NCBI RefSeq assembly: GCF_000517625.1
Contig: NZ_CP007055.1
Coordinates: 2,418,001 to 2,482,000, forward strand
DNA from: Halostagnicola larsenii XH-48
GTDB taxonomy: Archaea > Halobacteriota > Halobacteria > Halobacteriales > Natrialbaceae
DNA: 64,000 nucleotides
Reading direction: 5' to 3'
The notes under the pieces are model-generated. The model was not told where the DNA came from. It was given only the letters and a program-made list of their open reading frames with translations, and ran no database searches. Positions 28,047 through 32,242 of this stretch are shown piece after piece. Position 1 is the stretch's first letter; each line of letters starts with the position of its first letter. The position numbers and the translations under genes were made by a program.

Positions 28047-28258
28047 AAGACGATGAGTAATCTTGAATATGCCTTCCCGTGTGCGCTTGATAAACCTACT
28101 GTTCTCGGCCCGAATCCCCCGCCGGAAACGTACTCGAGTAGCAGTCGGTCGTCCCGGCTGGTAGGTCACACGGTTCGGGAGGTGAGCGACGATCCGGAAG
28201 GGAGATCACGGTTCGAGAGATCAGACCGCTTTTTGCGTTCGTCCCCCTCTCAGCAATC

Positions 28259-29338
28259 GTGTCCGAGTTTGCGTTCGAACTCGAGTTGTGCGCCCACCTC
28301 GAGTCGGTCGGCCGTCCCGAAACTGCCGACACCGACATCGTCGCGCGCCAGCTCGGCGGTGCCGTCGCGAAACCGGGCGGGCGCATCCTCGATATCGTCT
28401 GCGTCGAGCCGGGACCGGCGTTCGAGGATCGGCTGGCGCTGACCAGCGAGACGATCCCCGACGCCGCCATCGAAGCCGACGTCGGCCCCGGAACGGCCCG
28501 CTACTGGAAACGGGCGTTCCCCGACGACTGCCATCCCGAGCGCGCCAAAAGCGCCGTCGAGCGCGCCCTCGAGATCGACTTCTTCGAGGCCGACCTGCGA
28601 AACGGTCGCCGGTACGTCCGGCAGGTCGCTCGCTACCCCGACTGGTACGGACGGATCGTCGGCATCGAGAACAAGCCGGATCTGGGAACGCCCGGCGACC
28701 TCGAGGCCCAGCTTCGAACCGACGCGAGCCTCGGGCTGGTCGACGAGGCCGTCCTCGCGACCGAGAGCTACGTCACGCGGGCGCACCTCAATCGAATCCC
28801 CGAGGAGATCGGCGTCTGGCGCGTCTCGAGGGGAGAGAGGAGCGAAGGGAGCACAGCCGGGGCCCTCGAGATCGAAGTGATCCGGGAGCCGACGCCGCTT
28901 GCCGTGGACGAACCGGGCGTCGAGCCGCTCGAGTATCAGCCGGGCCACACCGATATCGCGATCGTCCCGCCGGAGCGAAAGGCCCGGACGCGCAGACGGA
29001 TCGCCGAACGAGCGTTCGGCAAGGGGTGGCGAACGTTCCGGTTTCCCGACTGTGAGGCCTGCGAACCGACGAACGACGGCGGTGGCGAAACGTCGGACGC
29101 CGTAGGCGATGGACGGCCCGGCGACTCCGGATCGGGGGCGACGACGCCGCTGCCGTTCTGTCAGTGGAAGGGCCGAGTCGTCGACGCCGAATCGGAGTGT
29201 GGACCCGCGTGTCCGGGCTACAAGCCGGGGGCGGAACCCGAAATCGACCTCGAGACGGAACGCGACCGGCGAACGCCGTGGCGGCGCGACCCGAGCGGGC
29301 GACGGCGACGCCAGTCCGGATTGGATCAGTTCGGATAG
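28259..29338 (+). CDS. DUF5787-like protein, possible PD-(D/E)XK nuclease with cysteine cluster
   Basis: 359 residues from a GTG start. Residues 1-185 read like a restriction-nuclease fold: Glu in a first helix (FELELCAHLE), Asp45 at a strand (RILDIVCVE), E137-N-K139 (GRIVGIENKPDL), then a helix with Gln151 and a strand DEAVLAT. The C-terminal third has Cys265, 268, 301, 314 and 318, a set able to bind zinc or Fe-S, as in Cas4/AddB-type nucleases. The annotation DUF5787 is from memory; nuclease activity is my inference. Divergent from eif2g. Confidence 0.75.
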   Translation: MSEFAFELELCAHLESVGRPETADTDIVARQLGGAVAKPGGRILDIVCVEPGPAFEDRLALTSETIPDAAIEADVGPGTARYWKRAFPDDCHPERAKSAVERALEIDFFEADLRNGRRYVRQVARYPDWYGRIVGIENKPDLGTPGDLEAQLRTDASLGLVDEAVLATESYVTRAHLNRIPEEIGVWRVSRGERSEGSTAGALEIEVIREPTPLAVDEPGVEPLEYQPGHTDIAIVPPERKARTRRRIAERAFGKGWRTFRFPDCEACEPTNDGGGETSDAVGDGRPGDSGSGATTPLPFCQWKGRVVDAESECGPACPGYKPGAEPEIDLETERDRRTPWRRDPSGRRRRQSGLDQFG

Positions 29339-29426
29339 CTCGAGGAAGCGAGTCGATTCGATCAGGGACGTTCTCACGGGCTCGAGGATGCATGCGGGTG
29401 GCGTCTTCGATCAGAGATCATGACAA

Positions 29427-30965: not shown

Positions 30966-31790
30966 TCAGAGGTCATACTGCTCGCCGTCGATCGCCAGCG
31001 GCTCTTCGAACGCTTCCTCGGCCGGGTAGTAGTGAGCGAGGTGGACCAGCCGCGTCCGATCGGCGTTCAGTTCGGCGGCGAGTTCGAGCGCGCCCTCTCG
31101 GGTCATGTGCTTCGTTCCGAACGTTCGGGGGACACCCTCGTCGTTCTCGTGGTGGCCGCCGATCGGGTGGAACTCACAGAGGTGGGCAGGCACGATCGCG
31201 TCGGCAAGCAGGAGGTCCGGATCGTCGAGGACCGCTCGAGACTCCTCGGGAACGTCGTAGCTCGTATCGCCCGAAATCGACAGCTTCGCCCCCGTTTCGG
31301 GATCCTCGATCGCCAGGCCGTAACAGACCAGCGGCGGATGAGTCACGGGGGCGAGCGTCACGTCTAACCCGCAGATGCGAACCGGCTCGAGCGGCGTCGT
31401 CGGGTGGACCGTCACCGGATCGAGGTAGTGGTAATCGCTTTCGACCGTTTCGGCGACGCTCTTGCCGGTCTCCGGGTCGGTTTCGTCCGCCGCGTAGACG
31501 TCGAGTTCGTCGATAACCCGAAAGACGTTGCCCAGGCCGTCGAGGTGGTCGAAGTGAATGTGCGTGACGACCGCGGCGTCGGGCAGCGGAACGTCCTCGC
31601 GCAGAAACTGGTAGCGAAAGTCGGGGCTGAAATCGATCAACAGCGATTCGTCCGTTCGCTCGTTCTCGAGGTGGACCGAAAACCGGGTGCGTTCGACGCC
31701 GCGCGCTCGAGCGGCCTCGCAGGTGTCACAGTCACAGCCGACGGTCGGGGTTCCCGTCGTGTCGCCGGTCCCGAGTAACGTGACCCGCAT
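30966..31790 (-). CDS. Metallo-beta-lactamase-fold hydrolase (PhnP-like)
   Basis: 274 residues. Begins MRVTLLGTGDTTGTPTVGC with a CDCDTC zinc-site sequence as in PhnP-type phosphodiesterases; metal motif THIHFDHLDG (His77, His79, Asp81, His82); further ligands in SISGDTSYD and LAHYYP. Probably a cyclic phosphodiesterase or related hydrolase; the exact substrate is open. The ATG is two bases downstream of the DUF2237 stop, so the long upstream extension is rejected. Confidence 0.88.
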   Translation of the reverse strand: MRVTLLGTGDTTGTPTVGCDCDTCEAARARGVERTRFSVHLENERTDESLLIDFSPDFRYQFLREDVPLPDAAVVTHIHFDHLDGLGNVFRVIDELDVYAADETDPETGKSVAETVESDYHYLDPVTVHPTTPLEPVRICGLDVTLAPVTHPPLVCYGLAIEDPETGAKLSISGDTSYDVPEESRAVLDDPDLLLADAIVPAHLCEFHPIGGHHENDEGVPRTFGTKHMTREGALELAAELNADRTRLVHLAHYYPAEEAFEEPLAIDGEQYDL

Positions 31791-31792
31791 CG

Positions 31793-32242
31793 TCACGTCT
31801 CGCCGTCGACCGAGCCGCGGCTCTCGCCCGTATCTGTTCGTCCATCGTCGGTCCGCCACGCGTCGCTGACGCGCGCCCGTTCGTACTCGTGCTCGCGCAA
31901 CAGATCCGGATCGACGTCGCGAAGCACCGCTTCGTTGGTCGCCTCGAGAACCACCGGCGGGGCACAACCGGCTTCTTCGGCCTCGAGCCACCGGCCGAGA
32001 CAGAGACACCAGCGATCGCCCGGCTCGAGGCCGGGGAACTCGAACTGGGGTTTGGGGGTCGTCAGGTCGTTGCCCTGTGTCGCGCTAAAGGTGAGAAACT
32101 CCTCGGTCATCACGGCACAGAGTTCGTGTCGGCCGCGGTCGCCCTCGACGCGCCGACAGCAGCCGTCGCGGAGAAATCCCGTCTCCGGATCGGCGCTACA
32201 GGGCTCGAGTTCGGTTCCGTAGACGTTCCGATCGGTGGCCAT
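31793..32242 (-). CDS. DUF2237 family protein
   Basis: 149 residues with the family landmarks NVYGTELEPCSADPETGFLRDGCC, HELCAVMTEEFL, SATQGNDLTTP, PGDRWCLCLGRWLEA and VVLEATNEAVL. The family is found in bacteria and archaea without a known activity; the conserved cysteines and Trp-Cys-Leu-Cys motif suggest a metal or cofactor site. Forms an operon with the MBL gene. The last 30 residues are an acidic tail. Confidence 0.88.
   Translation of the reverse strand: MATDRNVYGTELEPCSADPETGFLRDGCCRRVEGDRGRHELCAVMTEEFLTFSATQGNDLTTPKPQFEFPGLEPGDRWCLCLGRWLEAEEAGCAPPVVLEATNEAVLRDVDPDLLREHEYERARVSDAWRTDDGRTDTGESRGSVDGET

Follow-up and report, generated by a model that had tools for sequence, protein, structure and literature searches.

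A conserved haloarchaeal DUF5787 protein with a predicted PD-(D/E)XK nuclease core, an inserted winged helix and a C-terminal cysteine site

The DUF5787 protein encoded in a stretch of 64,000 nucleotides of Halostagnicola larsenii XH-48 (contig NZ_CP007055.1; the whole stretch is referred to as the window) is one of two paralogues that together are a core chromosomal gene pair of haloarchaea. Its predicted structure can be assigned with high confidence to the PD-(D/E)XK fold, and the evidence as a whole points to a core haloarchaeal nuclease that probably acts on DNA, combines an MmcB-like fold with a metal site of four cysteines (Cys4), occurs as two paralogues and has a housekeeping function in repair or processing. 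DUF5787 (PF19100) is a Pfam family without assigned function. The features of the gene and its product are as follows (positions in the window, residues of the protein):

28259..29338, + strand: gene of the window-type DUF5787 paralogue, 359 aa, GTG start (ORF list, Pfam match)
28265..28309, + strand: core helix 1 (residues 3-17) with invariant E7 and near-invariant C11 (AlphaFold model; E7 in 97/97, C11 in 94/97 homologues)
28337..28411, + strand: core strands 1 and 2 (27-33 and 43-51) with R30-Q31-x-G33, R42 and the catalytic-type D45 at 28391-28393 (model, conservation)
28421..28633, + strand: predicted winged-helix domain, approximately residues 55-125, between D45 and the E-x-K strand (VIA-align rows, D-to-E spacing)
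28667..28675, + strand: E137-N138-K139, forming the (D/E)-x-K motif where core strand 3 (130-138) ends (97/97; model)
28700..28732, + strand: helix 148-158 with invariant Q151 and D155 (model, conservation)
28799..28813, + strand: P181-x3-G185 motif, common to MmcB-like proteins (both residues 97/97; hhalign alignment with MmcB)
28970..29032, + strand: basic helix and turn, residues 238-258 (helix 238-255), with R251, G256, W257 and R258 (model; E250, R251, G256 and R258 invariant)
29051..29212, + strand: Cys4 site of C265 (29051-29053), C301 (29159-29161), C314 (29198-29200) and C318 (29210-29212), predicted Fe-S or Zn ligands (each 97/97)

The first-pass annotation had read the open reading frame 28259-29338 as DUF5787-like, and this is confirmed by a full-length match to PF19100 (residues 27-323, E 1.4e-97, 327.2 bits), which exceeds the curated cut-off of 25 bits; the GTG start is consistent with the alignment of the homologues. 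With a limit of E 10, a Pfam search of the window protein listed PF19100 alone, without PF06319 or a Cas4 profile; the NCBIfam, PADLOC and PHROGs profiles yielded nothing of weight beyond it, and PDB sequence searches with DUF5787 found no relative. DUF7140 is weakly matched by 16 of the 66 DUF5787 proteins of alignment A2 (best E 0.0013), such that a distant relation is possible. Around 26 bases 5' of the GTG start, the sequence reads TTTTTG (28230-28235), which could be a TATA box of the archaeal type belonging to a leaderless transcript. An open frame of 375 aa on the minus strand (28250-29377) covers the whole DUF5787 gene; it was set aside as a gene and is likely a by-product of the high G+C content.

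Concerning its distribution, PF19100 exceeded the cut-off in 80 of the 392 genomes from the phylum and in 284 of the 293 sampled genomes of the order, including 253 of the 255 with a completeness of 90% or more and a contamination of 5% or less; Haloferax volcanii is also matched. The nine genomes of the order without PF19100 come from three families (f5, f38, f41) in which genomes are mostly small, and our own DUF5787 profile, in a search run without a positive control of its own, likewise gave no match in them. Nearly all carrying genomes possess two copies. The single paralogue in the genome of the window (G000:C1:744392-745225) exhibits 37% identity in the matched part, and in a tree of 97 homologues the midpoint root separates 43 sequences of the window type from 54 of the second type (support 1.0 and 0.925). 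Seven genomes with a single hit were examined (G398, G404, G406, G421, G435, G436, G501): their copy is always of the window type, and six of them are less than 90% complete; loss of the second-type paralogue in such genomes is possible. One distant genome (G227) gave a weak PF19100 match (E 2.9e-4, profile positions 206-276, in an open frame of 666 aa), which was not recovered by the A1 profile and was taken as chance. No DUF5787 match was found in IMG/VR contigs and phage records, and the plasmid searches matched one record, an 828-kb replicon (megaplasmid) of Natronorubrum bangense, in which DUF5787 is already annotated.

Conservation was counted over 97 homologues from both paralogue groups, including one sequence of unusual length (L081) that alignments A1 and A2 do not contain. 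Invariant in all 97 are E3, E7, E15, R30, Q31, G33, R42, D45, R58, Y126 and W129 in the first part of the protein, followed by E137, N138, K139, P140, L148, Q151, D155, P181 and G185, and by E250, R251, G256, R258, C265, C301, C314, C318 and R335 towards the C-terminus. DUF5787 has the motifs R42-x2-D45 and E-N-K-P-D. Among the eight residues singled out beforehand (D45, E137, K139 and five cysteines), seven are invariant, for which random choice, with 32 invariant columns of 359, gives a probability of 1.8e-7; this figure is crude, as cysteines and acidic motifs are conserved above average anyway.

AlphaFold2 models were obtained for the window protein (alignment of 79 rows; pLDDT 88.5, pTM 0.86) and for the second paralogue (66 rows; pLDDT 88.0, pTM 0.87). 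The PD-(D/E)XK fold has the order helix-strand-strand-strand-helix-strand, in which strand 2 carries D close to its beginning and strand 3 carries E-x-K at its end. Both models exhibit a helix, a strand, a strand with D, an insert, a strand with E-x-K, a helix with Q and a further strand; in the window protein these are helix 3-17 (E7, C11), strand 27-33, strand 43-51 (D45), the insert, strand 130-138 (E137), helix 148-158 (Q151) and strand 163-168. The predicted core elements hence occur in the order of the superfamily, with D and (D/E)-x-K on the expected strands. The proposed nuclease-type core, including the placement of D45 on a strand and of Q151 on a following helix, is thereby borne out, and neither an unrelated fold nor a lack of conservation of Asp, Glu or Lys was encountered. 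E137 and K139 were likewise rightly recognised, E137 lying in strand 130-138 and K139 just after it; this strand does not, as had been supposed, directly follow that of D45, since approximately 78 extra residues, predicted to form the winged helix, are situated between them.

The fold searches differed in what they recovered. Foldseek alone did not show the core: against the PDB no match reached E ≤ 0.001 (0 of 558 rows with E ≤ 10 for the window model and 0 of 690 for the paralogue model), and the top rows for both models are mostly unrelated proteins. Against viral structures there was again no match at E ≤ 0.001 (best row E 0.0033); among the best 50 rows two carry DNA-repair names, one of these being MmcB-like. 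VIA-align ranked 3dnx (length 146) at the top for both models, with Z 10.8 over 137 residues (rmsd 5.5) and Z 11.4 over 138 residues (rmsd 5.3), the rmsd of this match being large in either case. The rows below 3dnx comprise XisH, Can2, Card1, NucS/EndoMS, Bax1, PaqCI (Z 10.2 with the paralogue model), SfsA and BamHI, all of which we take to be PD-(D/E)XK folds. Because values of Z < 8 may reflect a common arrangement, weight was put on 3dnx, on PaqCI and on the agreement of many rows from the same superfamily.

For the insert between D and E-x-K, VIA-align gave rows to winged-helix proteins with both models. With the paralogue model, more than 40 of the best 50 VIA-align rows are, by our own reading, winged-helix proteins (Z 7-8.5, around 60 residues, rmsd around 2 A), and the spacing from D to E amounts to 87-95 residues in DUF5787 vs 13-14 in MmcB-like proteins, a difference that is explained by the insertion of the winged helix. 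This would be an unusual PD-(D/E)XK architecture, in which the two catalytic motifs flank a DNA-binding domain.

The relation to MmcB-like proteins suggested by 3dnx (SPO1766), the entry title of which says 'protein of unknown function' and no more, was followed by profile comparison. The MmcB-like alignment A7 contains seven of eight sequences tried, which come from phages and plasmids and are related to a protein of a Fusobacterium phage matching PF06319 (E 4.6e-5), and its profile has 3dnx as top match in the PDB (E 0.0085). MmcB of Caulobacter is reported to be a PD-(D/E)XK endonuclease that protects against mitomycin C (PMC9578287). In hhalign, DUF5787 (A1) scored 28.6 against A7 (E 0.0026, probability 11.6%) and the alignment headed by the second paralogue 27.0. 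A larger MmcB-like alignment (79 of 80 loci kept by length, and 79 distinct rows after A7's seven had been added and duplicates removed) raised these scores to 33.9 (E 0.0007, probability 26.7%, low in absolute terms) and to 31.9 over 72 columns. All controls remained below these values: column-permuted versions of A7 reached at most 17.5 in 150 comparisons with A1 and 21.2 in 100 with A2 (in which 18 of the 31 window-type sequences are included), the column-permuted larger alignment at most 20.5 in 100, and control alignments of Cas4, NucS, the neighbouring metallo-beta-lactamase (MBL) fold protein and eIF2-gamma 13.8-17.6 against A1.

The stretch aligned between DUF5787 and MmcB comprises 47-48 columns and begins in both around 25-27 residues past the E of E-x-K, such that D45 and E137 lie outside it; it includes the P-x3-G-(V/I) motif (P181 and G185, both 97/97). 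The distance from the K of E-x-K to P-x3-G is 41 residues in 43 and 46 residues in 48 of the 97 DUF5787 proteins, and 39-42 residues in 51 of the 79 MmcB-like sequences. We read the relation, on these alignments, as real but distant and not as family membership, because the PF06319 profile has no match to the protein and the MmcB-like motifs E-x-D and E-x-K-x-S-x2-D-x-K are absent. The PF06319 profile was also without match in genomes of the phylum (0 of 100). A 'MmcB-like' protein of Enterococcus phage iF6 was dropped as a relative, as it does not match PF06319. Comparison with PD-(D/E)XK families thus yields a weak similarity to a DNA-repair nuclease family that nevertheless beats the controls.

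Concerning the cysteines, the claim of a C-terminal cluster of five holds for four of them: C265, C301, C314 and C318 are present in 97/97, whereas C268 is kept in just 19 of 97 homologues, 55 having Phe. The four are all C-terminal to the core, with the spacing C-x12-35-C-x11-12-C-x2-3-C, and their blocks are modelled with pLDDT 94-95, the intervening loop 271-290 with 52-57. In the window protein, the loop between C265 and C301 (29054-29158) contains a Gly/Ser/Asp-rich insertion and is 35 residues long vs 12-23 in the other 96. As judged from the sequences, an Fe-S cluster and zinc are equally possible at the predicted site. A further cysteine, C11, which the first-pass annotation had not named, is near-invariant (94 of 97, Ser in three) and might be a fifth, occasional metal contact.

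C11 is also the residue on which the previously proposed resemblance to Cas4 and AddB would depend. Had it the role of an N-terminal staple ligand, DUF5787 would be an Fe-S nuclease of the Cas4/AddB/Dna2 type: it lies in helix 1 ahead of the active-site motifs, at least three cysteines follow the core in the order given for Cas4 and AddB, and E-x-K-P is present in both DUF5787 and Cas4. Cas4 and AddB possess one cysteine on the N-terminal side and three on the C-terminal side, these three spaced C-x2-C-x5-C, and a zinc ion can stand in for the cluster in a related nuclease (PMC3466216). In DUF5787, however, four cysteines are invariant without C11, their spacing is another one, C11 is replaced by Ser in three homologues, and the core is split by the winged helix. 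Furthermore, the hhalign comparison of DUF5787 with haloarchaeal Cas4 (10 of 15 loci aligned) remained at background level, as did that with NucS (9 of 20 loci), whereas Cas4 and NucS scored weakly even against each other (20.9), which advises caution concerning the method. Cas4 (PF01930) has no match in the genome of the window, in which a separate NucS (PF01939) is encoded. Cas4 and NucS were accordingly rejected as closest relatives, the likeness to the Cas4/AddB latch was not upheld, and membership in that type of nuclease appears improbable.

The surroundings of both paralogues are conserved. Among 31 window-type loci, including the window itself, with flanks of about 1-6 kb, such that the counts are lower bounds, an MBL-fold protein (PF12706) is situated nearby in at least 26, eIF2-gamma in at least 24, and a PIN protein, an RpoE1-like protein and an AAA ATPase in at least 21 each; the names eIF2-gamma and RpoE1 are our own assignments. 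The PF12706 gene of the window (30966-32009) represents a conserved convergent neighbour of window-type DUF5787. Among 15 second-type loci with flanks of around 5 kb, a homologue of a Nudix protein is found upstream in 14, and in locus L071, taken as reference, it immediately precedes the DUF5787 gene in the same orientation, which suggests a conserved operon of Nudix gene and second paralogue; DUF5797 and an S10-like protein occur in 13 each, and a TFIIS-like factor in 11. These surroundings are of a housekeeping kind and indicate no single pathway, and among the genes conserved around the two paralogues we recognised none known from DNA repair.

The neighbours eIF2-gamma and MBL protein of the window type, and ribosomal S10, the TFIIS-like factor and Nudix near the second type, would also fit a nuclease that acts in the processing or decay of RNA and not on DNA. 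Such a neighbourhood is a weak argument by itself, because haloarchaeal housekeeping genes cluster; the nearest neighbours in profile and fold are DNA enzymes, and the insert resembles DNA-binding winged helices, so that we consider an RNA substrate rather unlikely. PD-(D/E)XK nucleases are common in defence, and Card1 and Can2 are among the VIA-align fold rows, in line with the defence role that had been offered as one option and that would here be directed against viruses or plasmids. However, DUF5787 is near-universal (284 of 293 genomes of the order, 253 of the 255 of good quality), it is chromosomal and lies in fixed housekeeping neighbourhoods, no PADLOC family was matched (0), and the viral and phage scans were negative, with a single record from plasmids. 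A function in defence is for these reasons highly unlikely, and on the same distribution, context and viral and plasmid evidence a mobile element was rejected as well. The role is probably one in repair and not in defence.

On the preferred reading, DUF5787 would be a haloarchaeal PD-(D/E)XK phosphodiesterase with a core akin to that of MmcB-like DNA-repair proteins (3dnx). Through coordination of one or two Mg2+ or Mn2+ ions, E7, D45, E137 and K139 would cleave the DNA backbone, whereby Q151, R30/Q31 and R42 may hold the substrate and order the active site. The winged helix between D45 and E137 could grip double-stranded or branched DNA beside the active site, and the four C-terminal cysteines are predicted to bind a [4Fe-4S] cluster or Zn2+ and thereby to pin the C-terminal tail to the core. 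The protein would act in a step of repair or DNA processing that haloarchaea share; almost all haloarchaeal genomes contain both ancient paralogues, each with its active site complete, and a housekeeping function in DNA repair or processing is therefore likely. A more elaborate proposal, to which we give little credence, is that the paralogues form an obligate heterodimeric metal-cluster nuclease with a winged helix and an active site in each subunit, making incisions on the two sides of a lesion or of a branched structure in a lineage-specific repair that was fixed near the base of the haloarchaea; in such a heterodimer, the cluster would perhaps sense oxidative or desiccation damage.

Haloarchaea withstand extreme radiation and desiccation, and almost all of them possess a pair of DUF5787 genes, for which a candidate active site, a predicted winged helix and a putative Cys4 site can now be named. 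In the literature searched, with subscription papers outside its reach, no mention or prior description of DUF5787 or PF19100 was found, and among the texts of this set naming both MmcB and archaea, none was, as judged from its listing, about haloarchaea.

DUF5787 can be compared with several known nucleases. For the CRISPR ancillary nucleases Card1 and Can2, which are CARF-nuclease fusions, the likeness consists of fold rows (nuclease domain, VIA-align Z 6.8-7.8). NucS/EndoMS has a similar PD-(D/E)XK core (Z 6.8-6.9) and no profile similarity to DUF5787. Nucleases of the Cas4, AddB and Dna2 type are alike in combining a PD-(D/E)XK-type core with a C-terminal cysteine metal site, as is predicted in DUF5787, whereas number, order and spacing of the cysteines differ and profile similarity does not rise above background. 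With the MmcB-like proteins, DUF5787 has in common the order D ... E-x-K and, in most members of both, a distance of around 39-47 residues from K to P-x3-G-(V/I); they furthermore provide the top fold match in VIA-align (3dnx) and a profile signal above all controls. MmcB-like proteins possess E-x-D and E-x-K-x-S-x2-D-x-K motifs of their own (79/79), which DUF5787 lacks beyond D and E-x-K, and have no conserved cysteine cluster, whereas DUF5787 exhibits the C-terminal Cys4 module, the predicted winged helix between D and E-x-K, the invariant E7 and the Gln-helix. Among the systems compared, the MmcB-like repair family is thus a better relative of DUF5787 than Cas4/AddB.
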